This document shows positions 3,814 through 26,839 of a stretch of 64,000 nt of DNA, piece by piece (the stretch's first letter is position 1; each line of letters starts with the position of its first letter). Where the stretch lies: NCBI RefSeq assembly GCF_900111835.1, contig NZ_FOJP01000012.1, positions 124,001 through 188,000 on the forward strand, given 5' to 3'. The notes beneath the pieces were generated by a model that did no database searches, had not been told where the DNA came from, and was given only the letters and a program-made list of their open reading frames with translations. Source of the DNA: Metapseudomonas otitidis (GTDB lineage Bacteria; Pseudomonadota; Gammaproteobacteria; Pseudomonadales; Pseudomonadaceae). Position numbers and translations under genes: made by a program.

Positions 3814-5670
3814 TTAAAGCCGGTTGAGGCTGACGTTGTCCAGGTACAGCGACTGGTCGGCACGGGTGCTGAGCACCAACAGCTCCATGCGCCGGTAGGT
3901 TCCGGCCGGCACCTGGAAGCTCTGCTGCAGCTTGCCCCAGGCGCCGCCCTTGGTATTGACCACACCCAGGGACAGTAACCGGCCGTTGCCGGCGGTGTCT
4001 TCCAGGTAGAGGTAGGCATAGGCCAGCGCAGCCACGCTGGCGGTGCGGCTCACCATCACGTCGGCGGCGAAGCGGTAGGACAGCCCCGGCTGCACCTTGC
4101 CGGCCAGGAGCAGGCTGGCGCCTGTGCCGTCGGCACGGCGGGCATGGACTTCCAGGGACTTGCCGGTGGCTGCCAGGGCGGTCAGCCGGGTGCTGCCGTA
4201 AAAGCCCGTCCACTCGCCGATGGCGCTGTCGAAGTTCCAGCCGAAAGCGGCCGGGGTCGTCGGGGTTACCGGCTTGGCAGGCGTCACCTCGCGGAGTTCG
4301 ACCTCATCCAGCAGCACGCCGAGGCGGTTGACGCTGACCAGGCCCAGGTAGGTGTTGCGGATGACGCTGGCCGGCGGCTGGTAGACGAAGGTGACGTCGA
4401 TGGGGGTGAACTCGCTGCTGGTCACCGACTTGATCACGCCGTTGGCCGTGCTGTAGCTGATGCCGGCGTTTTCTTCGTGAAGCATGCCCAGGTAGACGTT
4501 GCCGCGCACATTGGTGCCCTTGAGCATCACCTTGGCCTTGAGCCGGTAGCTGGCGCCGACCTTCAGTGCGCCCACCGAGGTGGCCAGCACGTCGTCGCGG
4601 CCGGCCGGCAGTTCGAACTGCAGGGCGTCGTCACGGCAGGTCTTGCCAACGTTGAGCGTGCTGAGCTTGGCCAGGTTGAGCAGTGCCCTCCAGCCGTCCA
4701 GGGTGCGGAACTCGCCGTTGGCCACCAGGCTGCTCAGCACCGGCTTGCTGCACCAGGCCGGGGTTACCGGGGGCGCCGGGGTTGTCGGCGTGACGGGTTT
4801 GGTCGGCGTGGCAGGTGTGGCCGGGGTCGTGGGCGTCGAGGTCGGGTTGACCGTCTCCGGCACCTTGGTCGGCCGCAAAGTGGCGATCTGAGCCGCCATG
4901 TCGTTCAGTGCCCGGGCCGCGTCGGCGAAGCCGGCTCGCCCGCAGGCCTGGTTGGCGCAGGTGCTGTCCACCACTGCGGGCGTGGAGAACAGCGGCGCCT
5001 GCGCGGTGGCGTTGAACACCTGGGGGTAGGCCATGATGGTGGAGTAGCGCCCCTGCACGCCGTAGCCCCGGCCCCATTCGTAGGTGCCCTGGTGGATGCC
5101 CCGGGCCAAGTAGGCGTAGTAGCCCTCGGTCTGGTCCTGCTCGTAGGAGTGGCGCAACCCCAGGTTGTGGCCGATCTCGTGGGCCATGGTACTCAGGCTG
5201 CAGTCCACTCCGGTGATGCCGTAGGCGCTGGCCCAGGAGCCGTTCTGGAAGGTGCCGCTGTTCTTCGGCCCGGAGAGCACGTAGCCGATGCCGCACACGC
5301 CGTAGCCCTGCCCCACCTGGGTGCGGCTGATCAGCTGCACCACGTCGGCGCCGTAGGTTTCGCGCAGCTGCTGCACGCGCGGGTCGGCGGCGAAGGCGGC
5401 CAGGTCCTTGGAGGAGATGGTCGGGTAGCTGGCCCAGGTGAGCGGCTGGGCGTTGACCAGGCGCAGGCGCAGGTTGACGTTGCTCTTCTTGAACGCGTTG
5501 TTGGCGTATTCGATGTAGCTGGCGATGCGGGCGTTCATGTCCCGCCCGTTGGGCAGGGCCTGAGCGTCCTTGGTGTAGAGCACCAGCAGATCGACGGTGC
5601 GCGGTTCGGTGGCGGCCTGGGCGAACGGGGCCAGCAGGATCACGGCCAGGCAGGCAAGCAGTTTCTTCAT
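3814..5670 (-). CDS. Secreted reprolysin-like zinc metalloprotease with two C-terminal carbohydrate-binding-like domains (copy A)
   Basis: This 618-residue protein has a cleavable signal peptide (about residues 1-19, ending AQA). Its metzincin-type catalytic domain carries HEIGHNLGLRH at residue 164 and a Met-turn STIMAYP near 212. The extended zinc motif HExxHxxGxxH and Met-turn place it in the M12B/reprolysin-like group. A Thr/Pro-rich linker (about 270-305) leads to two beta-rich modules of carbohydrate-binding (CBM4/9-like) appearance, each starting with a G-E-F or D-S-A type entry and separated by a second T/P linker near 465. The ATG at 5670 is preferred over 5676 because AGGAA sits 8 nt upstream of it. 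It follows a propeptide-like gene by 20 nt. The paralogue is at 7861-9702. Type II secretion is an inference. Confidence 0.85.
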   Translation of the reverse strand: MKKLLACLAVILLAPFAQAATEPRTVDLLVLYTKDAQALPNGRDMNARIASYIEYANNAFKKSNVNLRLRLVNAQPLTWASYPTISSKDLAAFAADPRVQQLRETYGADVVQLISRTQVGQGYGVCGIGYVLSGPKNSGTFQNGSWASAYGITGVDCSLSTMAHEIGHNLGLRHSYEQDQTEGYYAYLARGIHQGTYEWGRGYGVQGRYSTIMAYPQVFNATAQAPLFSTPAVVDSTCANQACGRAGFADAARALNDMAAQIATLRPTKVPETVNPTSTPTTPATPATPTKPVTPTTPAPPVTPAWCSKPVLSSLVANGEFRTLDGWRALLNLAKLSTLNVGKTCRDDALQFELPAGRDDVLATSVGALKVGASYRLKAKVMLKGTNVRGNVYLGMLHEENAGISYSTANGVIKSVTSSEFTPIDVTFVYQPPASVIRNTYLGLVSVNRLGVLLDEVELREVTPAKPVTPTTPAAFGWNFDSAIGEWTGFYGSTRLTALAATGKSLEVHARRADGTGASLLLAGKVQPGLSYRFAADVMVSRTASVAALAYAYLYLEDTAGNGRLLSLGVVNTKGGAWGKLQQSFQVPAGTYRRMELLVLSTRADQSLYLDNVSLNRL

Positions 5671-5690
5671 GGTCATCGTTCCTGTAGCGC

Positions 5691-6368
5691 TCAGCCGCGG
5701 GTCGGCGGCGGGAGGGGCTGCAATGGCGTGGAGTCGGGTGAGATGAGCACGTCCGGGGTGGCGCGCATCAGCAACTGGTTCTGGTCGGTCACCAGGGTGC
5801 TGCCGGTGGCGTTGTCCACCACCATGGAGAGGGTCTGTTCGCGGGTGGCGAGGGTGATGTGGGTTTCCAGTTGGCCCTGTACCACGGTGAGGGTGTCTTC
5901 CGGCTGGCCACCTTCCACCGGGCCGCTCCAGACGGCAGCGCCGCCGGTGTTGTGGGTTTCGTCCAGCGTGGCGCGCAGCGGCTCCCGACGGCCGGGCACG
6001 CCCAGCTGCAGGGTCTTGCCGACGGACAGCTCGCCCAGGGAGGTGGTCGCCACCTGGGTGCGGTAAAGGGTCATTTCCTGCTGTTGCTCGGGCACCAGGG
6101 AGTGGCTGTCCCAGAGTTCGATCAGGGTGTCGGCGGGGGCGTCCGCCACGGGCACCGTGGCGACGTGGGGTGCCGGCACCACGTTCACCGCAACCGGCAT
6201 CGGGCTGGCCGCCACGACCGGGGCGACGGGCAACGGAGTCGTCGGTGGTGCTGGCAATGGGGTGAGCTGGGTAACGGCCGGAGCCGATGGGGCATCACGG
6301 AGGAGGACGGCAAGGGTGACACCTGATGTGACCAGGGCAACCGCCAGGTAAAGGAGCGTACGGGGCAT
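5691..6368 (-). CDS. Membrane-anchored propeptide-like partner of metalloprotease A
   Basis: The 225-residue product has a single N-terminal hydrophobic segment (TLLYLAVALVTSGVTLAVLL), a Pro/Ala/Val-rich stretch to about residue 75, then a globular domain. That domain reads like the prodomain fused to the front of many bacterial reprolysin-like proteases, with VWSGPVEGG, a TLTVVQGQLETHITL strand pair and a final LLMRATPD. Here it is a separate gene 20 nt upstream of the protease, which itself lacks a prodomain. A role as detached propeptide, chaperone or inhibitor is inferred. ATG 6368 was chosen over the longer frame (6428) because residues from MPRTLLY align with the paralogue at 7169-7840. 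Confidence 0.7.
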   Translation of the reverse strand: MPRTLLYLAVALVTSGVTLAVLLRDAPSAPAVTQLTPLPAPPTTPLPVAPVVAASPMPVAVNVVPAPHVATVPVADAPADTLIELWDSHSLVPEQQQEMTLYRTQVATTSLGELSVGKTLQLGVPGRREPLRATLDETHNTGGAAVWSGPVEGGQPEDTLTVVQGQLETHITLATREQTLSMVVDNATGSTLVTDQNQLLMRATPDVLISPDSTPLQPLPPPTRG

Positions 6369-6635
6369 GACCACCTTCCCATGTTTCACCCGGCACAGCC
6401 GGGTGGCAGCGAAACCACGGAAGAGCATCCCTGACGAACCGTGGAACAGGTTCGACCGTTGCGAGGGGTAACGGCCAGTTGTTCGATTTATTGACGCCGG
6501 AAAATTGATATCACAGTGCCTGCATGTGACTTAAATACGCTTTCGCTATTAGCAAAGCGCTGGATCACACCATTGCGCTGCTACCCGTCTGCTGCCGATC
6601 CCTGGCTTCCTGAAGGACGTTATACGGCTCGCAGA

Positions 6636-6655
6636 AAGTTGAACGCGTTCAACTT
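6636..6655. promoter_or_regulatory. Perfect 20-bp palindrome, candidate operator
   Basis: The sequence AAGTTGAACGCGTTCAACTT equals its own reverse complement. The central CG and symmetric TTGAAC half-sites resemble LacI-family operators, but no such regulator is encoded in the window. It lies about 270 bp from the start of cassette A and about 510 bp from cassette B. Confidence 0.55.
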
Positions 6656-7050
6656 CCGCAAGTGAACCAACCACCACCTTAAACAGTTCCCCAATGGCCA
6701 TCGGGATAATTGGGATTTCTCGCACATTGCTGGTTTGACAGCCTCGCCGCCAATCGTGGGTAATTACGAAATCCGGCGGCATTCAACAGCGAACAACTGA
6801 TAACACGTCGCCATCATCGACGTAATCGTTAGACAAAATCCTTTGATTACAAACGGTTGTGAAGCACTCCAGTGCGTGCCGCTTCACTTCTGCGCTATTC
6901 CCTTAGTTGGCTTCATGCAACTTAAGACACTGGCAATCTGATAGTAGAAACAAACTGTTCAATTCAAACCGACACCGCACGTTTGAATAAGTAGTACCCA
7001 CTTCATTCGGAATTAATTCACCGGCTCAACCGAACAGCCCCTTGCGTCGT

Positions 7051-7064
7051 CATTGAATTCAATG
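7051..7064. promoter_or_regulatory. 14-bp palindrome upstream of cassette B
   Basis: CATTGAATTCAATG is perfectly self-complementary and ends 104 bp before the ATG of the cassette B propeptide-like gene. A protein-binding role is inferred from symmetry and position only. Confidence 0.4.
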
Positions 7065-7168
7065 GCTGGCCTTTGCCTGCCCGTTGATCGAACCCGCCTG
7101 CGCATCACGGACGTGCTCCGGCGGATCACGAGAGACCCGGCCCAGACCGGGTGAAAAAGGAGAACCCC

Positions 7169-7840
7169 ATGCGGAAAACCTGGCTCTACTCGGCCGTCGC
7201 CCTGGTGACGGCCGGCACGACCCTCGCCGTCCTGCTCAAGGACGCGCCAGCACAAGGCGATCAGGCCCCGGTGGCCTCGGCACCGTCCGACACCCGCCCG
7301 ACCCCGTCGCCATCCCTGGCAGACGCCGGCAGCCTGCCGCAGGCCGCTGCCCCGGTCGCCGCCAAGGCCTCGCCAGCTGCTGCGCAGGATGCGCCCCCGG
7401 CCACTACCCTGGCCCTGTGGGCGCCTGACACCCTGCAGGCCGAGGATCAGGACGGGATGACCGTCTACCACACCCGGACTTCCCCCGACCTGCTGGGCGC
7501 ACTCGCCGTGGGCCGCACCCTGCAACTGGGCGTACCGGGCCGCCAGGAACCCCTGCGTGCCAAGTTGGACGAGACCCACAACACCGGCAGCACCGCCGTG
7601 TGGAGCGGCCCGGTGGAAGGTGGCAGCGATGCCGACACCCTGACCGTGGTGAAGGGCCAGCTGGAAACCCACATCACCCTCGCTACCACCGAGAAGACCC
7701 TGTCCTTCGTGGTGGACAACGCCACCGGCGCCACCCAGGTGACCGACCAGAACGAACTGCTGATGCGCGCCACGCCAGACCCGATCGTCACCCCCGACGC
7801 CAAGCAACTGCCTCCCCTGCCGCCGCCCGCCCAGGGCTGA
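7169..7840 (+). CDS. Membrane-anchored propeptide-like partner of metalloprotease B
   Basis: This 223-residue protein is the paralogue of the one encoded at 5691-6368, with the same order: N-terminal anchor (LYSAVALVTAGTTLAVLL), Ala/Pro-rich linker, then a globular domain with LQLGVPGR, LDETHNTG, VWSGPVEGG, VKGQLETHITLAT and LLMRATPD. AAGGAG lies 7 nt upstream of ATG 7169; an in-frame start at 7151 has no such site. It precedes its protease gene by 20 nt, exactly as in copy A, so the pair was duplicated as a unit. The function as a stand-alone prodomain or inhibitor is inferred from similarity to fused prodomains. Confidence 0.72.
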   Translation: MRKTWLYSAVALVTAGTTLAVLLKDAPAQGDQAPVASAPSDTRPTPSPSLADAGSLPQAAAPVAAKASPAAAQDAPPATTLALWAPDTLQAEDQDGMTVYHTRTSPDLLGALAVGRTLQLGVPGRQEPLRAKLDETHNTGSTAVWSGPVEGGSDADTLTVVKGQLETHITLATTEKTLSFVVDNATGATQVTDQNELLMRATPDPIVTPDAKQLPPLPPPAQG

Positions 7841-7860
7841 TCCAACAAGGAACGTCCCCC

Positions 7861-9702
7861 ATGAAAAGACTCTTCATCGGCACCCTGCTGGCCGTCGCCG
7901 TCCAGGCCGCCCATGCGGCCGAGCCGCGCACCGTCGACATCCTGGTGCTCTACACCAAGGACGCCCAGGCGCTGCCCAACGGCCGCGACATGGACGCCCG
8001 CATCGCCAGCTACATCGAGTACGCCAACAACGCCTACAAGAAAAGCAACGTCGACCTGCGCCTGCGCCTGGTGCATCGCCAGCTGCTGGACTGGGCCAGC
8101 TACCCCACCGTCTCCAGCCGTGACCTGGCCGCCTTCGCCGCCGACAGCCGCGTGCAGCAGCTGCGCGAGACCTACGGCGCCGACATGGTCCACCTGATCG
8201 GTCGCACCCAGGAAGGCCAGGGCTACGGCGTGTGCGGCATCGGCTATGTGCTCTCCGGGCAGAAGAACAGCGGCACCTTCAACTCCGGCTCCGCCAACAG
8301 CGCCTACGCCATCACAGGCGTCGACTGCAGCCTGAGCACCATGGCCCACGAGATCGGCCACAACATGGGCCTGCGCCACTCCTACGAGCAGGACCAGACC
8401 GAGGGCTACTACCAGTCCGACTGGCACCAGGGCACCTTCGAATGGAGCCGTGGCTACGGCGTGCAGGGTCAGTTCTCCACCATCATGGGCTACCCCCATG
8501 TGTTCAACGCCCGCGTCCAGGCCCCGCTGTTCTCCTCGCCGCGCGTGGTGGACAGCACCTGTGCCAACCAGGCCTGCGGCCAGGAGAACCACGCCGACGC
8601 AGCCCGTGCGCTGAACGCCATGGCGGCACAGATCGCCGCCCTGCGCGCCACCAAGGTGCCGGAGACGCAGAACCCCACCAACCCGGGCACCCCCACCACC
8701 CCGCCGACCACACCCCCGACCACACCGCCCACCACGCCGACCCCGGCCTGGTGCAACAAGCCGGCGCTCAAGGGTCTGGTGGCCAATGGTGAGTTCCGCA
8801 CCGAGGAGGGCTGGCAGGCCCTGCTGGGCTACGCCACCACGAGCCTGGTGAACGTCGGCAAGACCTGCCGCGACAACGCCCTGCTGCTGGAACTGCCCAA
8901 CGGCGGCAGCGACATCCTCGCCACCCCGGTCACGGCCCTGCGCGAGGGCGCCCGCTACCGCCTGCGTGCCAAGGTCATGCTCAAGGGCGCCAATGCACGC
9001 GGCAACCTCTACCTGGGCATCCTCCACGAGGCCAACGACCGCATCAGCTACAGCAGCGCCTCGGGCGTGACCCAGTCGGTGACCAGCAGCGAGTTCACCA
9101 CCCTGGAACGCACCTTCACCTACACCCGCGCCCAGACCCCGCCGCGCACCACCTACGTCGGCCTGATCAGCCGCGACGGCCTGAGCGTGCTGGTGGATGA
9201 GGTGGAACTGACCGAGGTGACCGAGCCGAAGCCCACCACCCCGACCACCCCCACCGTCCCCTCGACGCTGGCGTGGAACTTCGAGAACGGCGTGGCCGGC
9301 TGGGCCGGTTTCCACGGCCGCACTCGCCTCGTCAGCCTGGGTGGCAACACCGGCACCTCGCTGGAAAGCTACGCCCGCCTGTACGAAGGCAGCGGCGCCA
9401 GCATCCCGCTGCAGGGCAAGGTGCAGGGAGGCTTCGGCTACCGCCTGGCCGCCGACGTGATGATCGGCCGCAACGCCGCCATCAAGGGCCTCACCTACGG
9501 CTACCTGTACCTGGAGGACACCAGCGGCCAGGGCCGCTACCTGCCCCTGGGCATGAGCGGCACCGTGGGCGGCGCCTGGAGCCGTCTGCAGCAGGACGTG
9601 CAGATCCCCGCCGGCACCTACCGCCGCGTGGAGCTGCTGGTACTGGGCACCCGCAAGGACCAGTCCCTGTACCTGGACAACGTCAGCTTCAACCGGCTCT
9701 GA
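7861..9702 (+). CDS. Secreted reprolysin-like zinc metalloprotease with two C-terminal carbohydrate-binding-like domains (copy B)
   Basis: The 613-residue product parallels copy A throughout. The signal peptide ends AHA (about 19 residues). The catalytic motif is HEIGHNMGLRH at residue 163, with Met-turn STIMGYP. Cysteines are conserved around the active site (GVCGIGYV, GVDCSLST, CANQACG). A run of TTPP repeats (about 275-295) links to two beta-rich CBM4/9-like modules, the first opening with NGEFRTEEGW and the second with WNFENGVAGWAGF. AAGGAACG precedes ATG 7861. It probably degrades host or environmental glycoprotein material outside the cell; that role and T2SS export are inferences. Confidence 0.86.
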   Translation: MKRLFIGTLLAVAVQAAHAAEPRTVDILVLYTKDAQALPNGRDMDARIASYIEYANNAYKKSNVDLRLRLVHRQLLDWASYPTVSSRDLAAFAADSRVQQLRETYGADMVHLIGRTQEGQGYGVCGIGYVLSGQKNSGTFNSGSANSAYAITGVDCSLSTMAHEIGHNMGLRHSYEQDQTEGYYQSDWHQGTFEWSRGYGVQGQFSTIMGYPHVFNARVQAPLFSSPRVVDSTCANQACGQENHADAARALNAMAAQIAALRATKVPETQNPTNPGTPTTPPTTPPTTPPTTPTPAWCNKPALKGLVANGEFRTEEGWQALLGYATTSLVNVGKTCRDNALLLELPNGGSDILATPVTALREGARYRLRAKVMLKGANARGNLYLGILHEANDRISYSSASGVTQSVTSSEFTTLERTFTYTRAQTPPRTTYVGLISRDGLSVLVDEVELTEVTEPKPTTPTTPTVPSTLAWNFENGVAGWAGFHGRTRLVSLGGNTGTSLESYARLYEGSGASIPLQGKVQGGFGYRLAADVMIGRNAAIKGLTYGYLYLEDTSGQGRYLPLGMSGTVGGAWSRLQQDVQIPAGTYRRVELLVLGTRKDQSLYLDNVSFNRL

Positions 9703-12615: not shown

Positions 12616-12631
12616 TGTGAACGGGTTCACA
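12616..12631. promoter_or_regulatory. CRP/Vfr-type binding site candidate
   Basis: TGTGAACGGGTTCACA has both half-sites of the CRP consensus TGTGA-N6-TCACA without mismatch. Vfr is the Pseudomonas CRP homologue. The site is 150 bp upstream of the small gene at 12781, in a stretch otherwise without genes (12507-12780). Confidence 0.5.
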
Positions 12632-24944: not shown

Positions 24945-26839
24945 AACTGCCCCGCGTGACCGGCGCGCTGCTGGTGCTTGGCACCCTGCTCGCCCCCCTT
25001 CCCGCGTTCGCCGAACGCAACGAATCCCGCCAATGGACGCTGAACATGAAGGACGCCGAACTGCGCGACCTGGTCAGCGAAGTCGGCGAAATCACCGGCA
25101 AGACCATGGTCCTCGACCCGCGCATGAGCGGTAAGGTCACCGTGCAGTCCAGCAGCGCGCTGGACCAGGCCGGCATCTACTCGCTGTTCCTCACCGTGCT
25201 GCGCAGCCAGGGCTACGCCGCCCTCGACCAGGGCGACCGCGTGCTGATCGTCCCCGTGGCCGACGCCAAGACCAAGGCCAGCGGCAGCGAGCAGGCGGCA
25301 GACGACGAGTTCGTCACCGAGGTCATCCCGCTGCGCAACGCCACCTCCGCCGAAGTGGCCGCCGTGCTGCGCCCGCTGGTGGCGGTGGACGCCTACGTCG
25401 CCCCCTCCAGCAGCTCCAACGCCCTGGTAGTGACCGACAGCGCCAGCAACGTCGGCCGCATCCGTTCCCTGGTGCGCGAGCTGGACAGCGCCGGCGAGCG
25501 CGCCTTCTCCACCCTCGGCCTCAAGCACGCCTGGGCCACCGACCTGGCCGCCACCCTCACCGAGAGCGTCAACCAGGGCAGCGGTGCCCCGGCCGGCGCC
25601 CGCGCCATCGCCGATGCCCGCAGCAACCGGCTGATCCTGGTCGGCCCGAGCCAGGCCCGCGAGCAGATGGCCACCCTCGCCCGCCAGCTGGACGTGCCCG
25701 GCAACGCCAACGACGGCACCCGCGTGGTGCGCCTGCACCACACCGACGCCAAGCAACTGGCCGACCTGCTCTCCGGCATCGGCAAGCGCATGGAAGTGGG
25801 CAACGGCGGCAAGGAAGGCCGTGCCGGCTCCATCCTCATCAGCGCCGACGAAAGCCAGAACGCCCTGGTGCTGATGGCCGAACCGGCCCAGCTGGCGACC
25901 CTCGACGCCGTGATTGCCCAGCTCGACCGCCCCCGCGCCCAGGTGCTGGTGGAAGCGGCCATCGTCGAAGTCAGCGGCGACATCAACGACGCCCTCGGCG
26001 TGCAGTGGGCCGGCCGTGGCGGCGACGCAGCCGGTTCCATCCAGTTCGGCGGCAGCGGCCTGACCATCGGCTCCCTGCTGGGCACCCTGCAGGACGGCAA
26101 GCGCCCCACCCTGCCCGACGGCGGTGTGATCGGCGTCGGCAGCGGCCACTTCGCCGCCCTGGTCACCGCCCTGTCCAGCGACTCCAACAACAACCTGCTC
26201 TCCACCCCCAGCCTGCTGACCCTGGACAACGAACCGGCGGAGATCCTCGTCGGTCAGAACGTGCCCTTCCAGACCGGCTCCTACACCACCGACGCGGCCG
26301 GTGCCAACAACCCCTTCACCACCGTCGAGCGCCGCGACATCGGCGTGACCCTCAAGGTCACCCCGCACATCAACGAGGGCAACAGCCTGCGCCTCAAGGT
26401 CGAGCAGGAGAGCTCCGAGCTGGCCGCCGCCCCGCCGGGCATCACCACCAGCGACGCCATCACCAACAAGCGCGCGATCAAGAGCACCATCCTCGCCGAC
26501 AACGGGCAGATCATCGTCATCGGCGGCCTGATCAAGGACAACGTCAAGACCCAGGTCAGCAAGGTGCCGCTGCTGGGCGACATCCCCCTGATCGGCGGGC
26601 TGTTCCGCTCCACCAAGGAGGTCACCGAGAAGACCAACCTCATGGTCTTCCTGCGCCCCACCCTGCTGCGCACCAGCGAGGAGAGCGGCGAACTCGGCCA
26701 GCGCAAGTACAACGACCTGCGCAACCTGCGCAGCAACGACCGTGGCCCCAGCGGGCTGCTGCTGCCCAGCGACCCGCGCCAGCTGTTCGACAACGACGGC
26801 GGCCAGGTGCTGGACATGCGCGGAGCCAAGGGGCGATGA
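24941..26839 (+). CDS. gspD: Type II secretion secretin GspD
   Basis: The 632-residue secretin forms the outer-membrane channel. A standard signal peptide (ends AFA) without lipobox is followed by the N0 domain ([23 protein letters not shown]), N1-N3 repeats ([20 protein letters not shown] is typical) and the C-terminal secretin domain with [17 protein letters not shown] 60-residue tail after that could be a pilotin-binding region, but no pilotin gene is nearby. It overlaps gspC and gspE by 4 nt each, indicating tight translational coupling. Confidence 0.95.

Follow-up and report, generated by a model that had tools for sequence, protein, structure and literature searches.

Metzincin prodomains block the catalytic zinc with a cysteine or an aspartate switch, and those of ADAM17 and fragilysin are removed by cleavage. 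According to PMC4334185, the Pseudomonas aeruginosa metzincin Mep72 (PA2783) undergoes processing and, in biofilms, leaves the cell through the type II system; the full-length protein is toxic to E. coli, an effect that bamI relieves, and BamI (PA2782) binds the protease in a pull-down of refolded proteins. The same paper likens BamI, regions of which were predicted to be unfolded, to AprI, and PMC4222646 presents PA2782 as a protein without a specific motif in an operon under Vfr. The Acinetobacter metzincin CpaA, also type II secreted, has an anchored chaperone, CpaB, whose tail is reported in PMC7542363 to occlude the catalytic site of CpaA; CpaB was guessed to have a eukaryotic (Aha1-like) origin, and anchored type II secretion chaperones have been grouped by gene order and topology (PMC4713064). 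Here we describe a 64,000-nucleotide stretch of Metapseudomonas otitidis DNA (contig NZ_FOJP01000012.1, positions 124,001 to 188,000; hereafter the window) in which the Mep72-BamI operon is present twice, in divergent orientation, and we propose, with a probability of roughly 85%, that in BamI a metzincin prodomain has a gene of its own (anchor, linker of about 55 residues, beta core and C-terminal tail); the protein would be homologous to CpaB and would silence Mep72 until export.

The left cassette lies on the minus strand and the right one on the plus strand, on either side of a common non-coding region (aa, amino acids; CBM, carbohydrate-binding module):

3814-5670, minus strand: Mep72-A, secreted metzincin of 618 aa with signal peptide, catalytic domain and two C-terminal CBM-like modules (NF052434; Pfam Reprolysin_3/5/4 and CBM_4_9)
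5149-5181, minus strand: zinc-binding motif HEIGHNLGLRH of Mep72-A (sequence)
5691-6368, minus strand: BamI-A, 225 aa, putative detached prodomain-like inhibitor with a predicted N-terminal anchor (NF052435; fused-prodomain profile)
6369-7168, no strand: non-coding region common to both divergent cassettes (alignment of four species)
7169-7840, plus strand: BamI-B, 223 aa (NF052435; fused-prodomain profile; structure model)
7861-9702, plus strand: Mep72-B, 613 aa (NF052434)
8347-8379, plus strand: zinc-binding motif HEIGHNMGLRH of Mep72-B (sequence)

The four genes are arranged as a preliminary description of this DNA had it, in two divergent, duplicated cassettes whose proteases are 68% identical over 601 aligned positions and whose small proteins are 57% identical over 214, both far above chance; the 20-nt spacing noted there for each cassette likewise stands with the left protease start at 5670 (14 nt if the ATG at 5676 is taken instead). 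Both proteases pass the curated cut-off of the Mep72 family NF052434 (645 bits; copy A 679, copy B 723) and both small proteins that of the BamI family NF052435 (180 bits; copy A 226, copy B 253), the latter having no Pfam family match at E up to 1. Across the 50 contigs of the genome (6.34 Mb), exactly two Mep72 and two BamI genes exceed these cut-offs; another contig holds a third metzincin-like match, a remote one (L003, G000:C21:143066-143668, minus strand), within a frame of 1213 aa. The metzincin motif HExxHxxGxxH is present in both Mep72 copies and, because a signal-like stretch runs directly into the catalytic domain, with the first Pfam match starting at residue 22-24, neither has a prodomain of its own, as was read at the outset from the HEIGHNxGLRH proteins. 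The two CBM-like modules ascribed to each protease were recovered as two Pfam CBM_4_9 stretches in Mep72-A; Mep72-B gives no Pfam CBM match at E up to 1, although it matches the Mep72 family over its full length.

The loci are accordingly new members of a known gene pair, with a divergent double arrangement. They agree with PA2783-PA2782 in both NCBIfam families, in placing the inhibitor gene first and in domain order, and differ from it in that P. aeruginosa has a single operon whereas two divergent copies surround one control region here, and in a gene spacing of 20 nt against the 77-78 bp reported for PAO1 (start codons as annotated there). Since the pair has been named and its binding and relief of toxicity published (PMC4334185), what is new is the prodomain identity; a paper joining BamI, CpaB and metzincin prodomains was not found in the open-licence literature, a scope that leaves out most subscription papers and gives no proof of absence. 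CpaA carries extra domains beyond its catalytic domain, which differ from the C-terminal CBM-like modules of Mep72. In gene order, too, the Acinetobacter pair (PDB 6o38) is distinct, CpaB lying downstream of CpaA and BamI upstream of Mep72. Single-chain zymogens, namely ADAM17, profragilysin-3 and the single-chain bacterial relatives among loci L080-L139, carry their prodomain in cis, whereas BamI is a separate anchored chain.

The prodomain identity was assessed with a profile of the prodomain core only, derived from 45 single-chain (fused) proteins and run on 1717 stop-to-stop open reading frames (ORFs) from the window and from loci giving no row to the profile. BamI-B scores 18.0 bits (E 2e-4) and BamI-A, for which the match is weak, 13.8 bits (E 0.0041). 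Ranks 1-35, several of them from near-identical or the same genomes, are occupied entirely by small proteins near a metzincin or by single-chain metzincins outside the model, the clearest detached proteins reaching 31-51 bits, and the first unrelated ORF appears at rank 36 (8.5 bits, E 0.18). When each BamI was shuffled 2000 times, no shuffle attained the real score (14.2 against a maximum of 7.7, and 18.4 against 7.4). An untrimmed profile that included signal-peptide columns placed the BamIs at ranks 1-2 of 381 window ORFs (E 2.2e-6 and 0.0036) with an unrelated ORF third (E 0.0097), and the profile was therefore cut to the core and rerun. By hhalign, 24 BamIs match the 45 fused prodomains with a probability of 90.2 (E 1.5e-6), the BamI core with 92.8 (score 41.7) and five more distant anchored proteins with 97.1 (E 4.9e-11); among the controls for the BamI core, 200 column-shuffled decoys reach at most probability 3.6 and score 17.6, the reversed alignment 15.1 and the catalytic domain 10.2. 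These results support the split-off reprolysin-type prodomain suggested in the preliminary description. FliD-like matches of BamI-B among PDB sequences (E 0.018) were dismissed as chance because the BamI family profile does not reproduce them. As a separate gene product with its own predicted anchor, BamI is not covalently N-terminal to the catalytic domain; it may act like a prodomain, yet it is not a cis propeptide.

The link to CpaB emerges from a wider profile of 28 detached (anchored) proteins, A4, whose single match below E 0.01 among all PDB sequences is CpaB of 6o38 (E 2.2e-5, residues 69-167). A4 gives this CpaB stretch alone 27.2 bits, against 7.0 for the best of 2000 shuffles, and 21.8 bits once its four Mep72-like non-Pseudomonas rows are removed. 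BamI alone gives it 4.6 bits, the distant anchored set 4.9 and the fused prodomains alone 6.6, values equalled by 8, 1 and 4 of 2000 shuffles, respectively. A direct sequence link is absent with each of these three sets and appears only with A4 or with its four Mep72-like non-Pseudomonas rows; as CpaB is matched by the wide profile and not by BamI alone, the link passes through the wider family. A fold comparison with modelled BamI alone gives a likeness to CpaB and to the pro-forms of ADAM17, an M12B protease, and of fragilysin, which adds to the evidence from profile comparison with prodomains; CpaB and pro-metzincins fill the first 17 structural rows. Neither a Lif foldase nor AprI is found among the 50 VIA-align entries listed, which does not amount to an exclusion. 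The sequence of BamI and its predicted fold, that of a metzincin prodomain, match the periplasmic domain of CpaB-type anchored chaperones, and a CpaB-type N-terminal transmembrane anchor is predicted (helix 4-24); we therefore take BamI to be a homologue of CpaB. The Lysobacter antibioticus locus L114 encodes a single-chain protease with a prodomain, which may explain the weak CpaB orthologs once seen in this species.

BamI could instead be an unrelated periplasmic inhibitor of the AprI kind with a convergent likeness to prodomains, small beta-barrel-like folds being common. AprI of P. aeruginosa is, like BamI, a co-expressed inhibitor of a secreted metzincin, AprA, and the two were compared by Passmore et al. 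(PMC4334185), according to whom AprA has its own type I secretion system; Mep72 uses type II. This explanation is very unlikely in view of the sequence-profile links that hold against decoy controls, of structural rows restricted to CpaB and pro-metzincins, and of the lack of a Pfam family match for BamI at E up to 1, the ground on which kinship with AprI was set aside.

The architecture of BamI is illustrated by copy B:

7178-7240, plus strand: predicted membrane anchor of BamI-B, residues 4-24 (helix in the model; hydropathy 2.17 over 15 residues)
7241-7405, plus strand: Pro/Ala-rich linker of BamI-B, probably flexible, residues 25-79 (block means of the predicted local distance difference test, pLDDT, 47-70; composition)
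7406-7768, plus strand: predicted prodomain-like beta core of BamI-B, residues 80-200 (structure model)
7769-7837, plus strand: Pro-rich C-terminal tail of BamI-B, residues 201-223 (position; CpaB tail in PMC7542363)

In the model, helix 4-24 has a pLDDT of only about 70-75 and the linker is of low confidence. A hydrophobic N-terminal segment is found in both copies and predicted in 26 of the 28 detached proteins, in keeping with the membrane-anchored small protein described earlier. A D-x-x-hydrophobic-P motif stands between core and catalytic domain in 34 of the 45 fused proteins; 13 of the 28 detached ones, including 5 of 15 BamI rows, have it close to the C-terminus. The BamIs have a Pro-rich tail, and no cysteine occurs in any of 24 of them. 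On the strength of its position and of the report on the CpaB tail in PMC7542363, we propose that the BamI-B tail would likewise pass through the active-site cleft.

Gene order, co-occurrence, sequence-profile homology and predicted fold were computed here; from these, and by analogy with CpaB, we infer the BamI-Mep72 pose, the blocking by the tail and an activation by separation. Mep72 and BamI would each be exported across the inner membrane, the BamI core would dock on the catalytic domain in the manner of a cis prodomain and its tail would enter the active-site cleft, Mep72 folding and staying silent in the periplasm. Type II secretion would then remove the protease while BamI remains tethered, so that activation would be achieved by separation and not by propeptide cleavage. 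A GspD-type type II secretin is encoded within the window at 25040-26683 (plus strand), and the genome has five above the family cut-off.

One result speaks against the prodomain reading: a BamI-only profile finds detached relatives and gives no clear match to fused prodomains. The cis-type tail motif is missing from 10 of 15 BamI rows, and CpaB, the closest solved relative, is required for CpaA secretion (PMC4713064); both would suit a descendant of a prodomain that has kept no block of the active site and now merely helps the protease to fold or to reach type II secretion as a chaperone. We regard this as improbable, since a block of the CpaA catalytic site is reported for the CpaB tail (PMC7542363) and BamI relieves Mep72 toxicity in E. 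coli (PMC4334185), which fits inhibition. For BamI and CpaB together, hitherto classed as a protease inhibitor and as a type II secretion chaperone whose origin was unknown, it is likely that they form one family of prodomains freed by gene fission, which gained a membrane anchor and for which secretion itself activates the enzyme.

Within the window's genus, BamI is encoded in 4 of 18 genomes, with two copies in each, and in those four the cassettes diverge, with 800-807 bp between their profile ends. Among 398 sampled Pseudomonadaceae genomes, BamI is above the cut-off in 19 and Mep72 in the identical 19, and all 25 over-cut-off Mep72 genes have BamI just upstream on the same strand, a genomic co-occurrence that speaks for the pairing first put forward; the 25 pairs are not independent cases because closely related genomes (for example G075 and G196) are among them. 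A metzincin that is more distant occurs in five further Pseudomonadaceae genomes. Two of these have a weak BamI match upstream of it; in the remaining three (L051-L053) the BamI model finds no match, yet the upstream gene codes for a small anchored protein. When the distant anchored proteins (A1) were searched for across the class, 2 of 369 genomes yielded weak matches.

A profile search of genome contigs with 11 catalytic domains gave 246 confirmed matches, the best 80 of which correspond to 79 loci and are no census. By a prodomain profile, five-fold cross-validated for loci that had supplied rows, the prodomain resides in the protease's own N-terminus in 48 loci, only in a separate ORF in 23 and in neither in 8. 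The last group comprises two loci cut at contig ends (L107, L134), one with a small gene just below threshold (L073), one with no prodomain in the locus (L089) and four with long non-scoring N-termini (L099, L100, L117, L131); among the 23 split loci, L076 is weak (E 0.1) and the protease frame of L087 looks broken. The split arrangement spans Pseudomonas, Hahella, Microbulbifer, Marinobacter, Magnetococcales and one Myxococcota metagenome-assembled genome (MAG), with the prodomain gene mostly directly upstream of the metzincin among the loci listed. Two genes just 20 nt apart in different frames might raise the suspicion of a single gene disrupted by a frameshift or by mis-assembly. Such an artefact is hardly credible given that NCBI holds the two as separate families and that, of 23 split loci examined (L087 omitted, L073 added), 21 have a protease with a signal-like stretch of its own, and the two-gene layout conserved in all 25 pairs rules out a frameshift.

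In a tree of 75 catalytic domains, from which seven of the 79 loci were dropped as partial, three changes between split and fused are required: the Mep72 plus lectin-tailed clade, the pair L075/L076, and L083 within the fused group. Prodomain fission may have occurred more than once; as a single clade of all split rows is not rejected (approximately unbiased test, p 0.133), repeated fission is not claimed.

Several of these loci depart from the usual layout. The prodomain gene is downstream in L084 (5057-6028) and L135 (2446-3093, by the neighbouring metzincin), an order as in CpaA-CpaB. In Hahella, L078 has a detached prodomain gene, a metzincin and then a second metzincin with no adjoining small gene (178-1116, 1173-2672 and 3926-5149), so that one inhibitor may serve two enzymes. 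The Magnetococcales locus L089 (3899-8743) encodes a 1614-aa metzincin with no scoring prodomain in ORF or locus; in L083, a relative from the same MAG, the prodomain is detached. Three Nitrospira loci (L094 4828-5355, L095 4687-5259, L121 4829-5359) contain a secreted-looking prodomain-only ORF ending in L-P-P-D, which follows a protease still bearing its own prodomain and is a possible halfway stage to a detached prodomain. Seven single-chain relatives, mainly from Acidobacteriota and Planctomycetota (L093, L106, L111, L112, L116, L120, L122), have a Cys in P-C or P-x-C immediately after the prodomain core, a candidate cysteine switch.

The shared control region of the preliminary description is borne out by the 800 bp of non-coding sequence between the cassettes, whose mean column identity in four species is 91% over the aligned stretch (short gene ends included). 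At 6637-6654 it contains a perfect 18-bp palindrome, AGTTGAACGCGTTCAACT, a candidate operator shared by all four species that have the two divergent cassettes; the 6.34-Mb genome holds a single occurrence of its 16-base core, in which the middle two bases are free, and only 0.02 matches with up to 3 mismatches are expected by chance in the window. A simple scan of 6300-7250 detected no sigma-70 promoters or terminators. A Vfr/CRP-type site, TGTGA-N6-TCACA, has one 2-mismatch match between the cassettes (6711-6726) and is not claimed, because matches in the window are fewer than expected by chance; the only mismatch-free match in the window, TGTGAACGGGTTCACA, lies at 12616-12631. Concerning the origin of the two cassettes, Mep72-A groups with two other Pseudomonas proteases (L061 and L068, the latter one of two copies in its strain) to the exclusion of Mep72-B (100/99), and the A/B duplication therefore appears to predate the divergence of those lineages.

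If BamI and CpaB are detached prodomains, inhibition, folding and retention would fall under one explanation, the active-site tail of CpaB would be a feature to expect of a zymogen, and the single-chain relatives, which occur in many phyla, would become usable models. The pair would then be a natural example of a cis safety catch turned trans, in which zymogen activation need not involve cleavage, and this would explain how Mep72 stays silent until exported.

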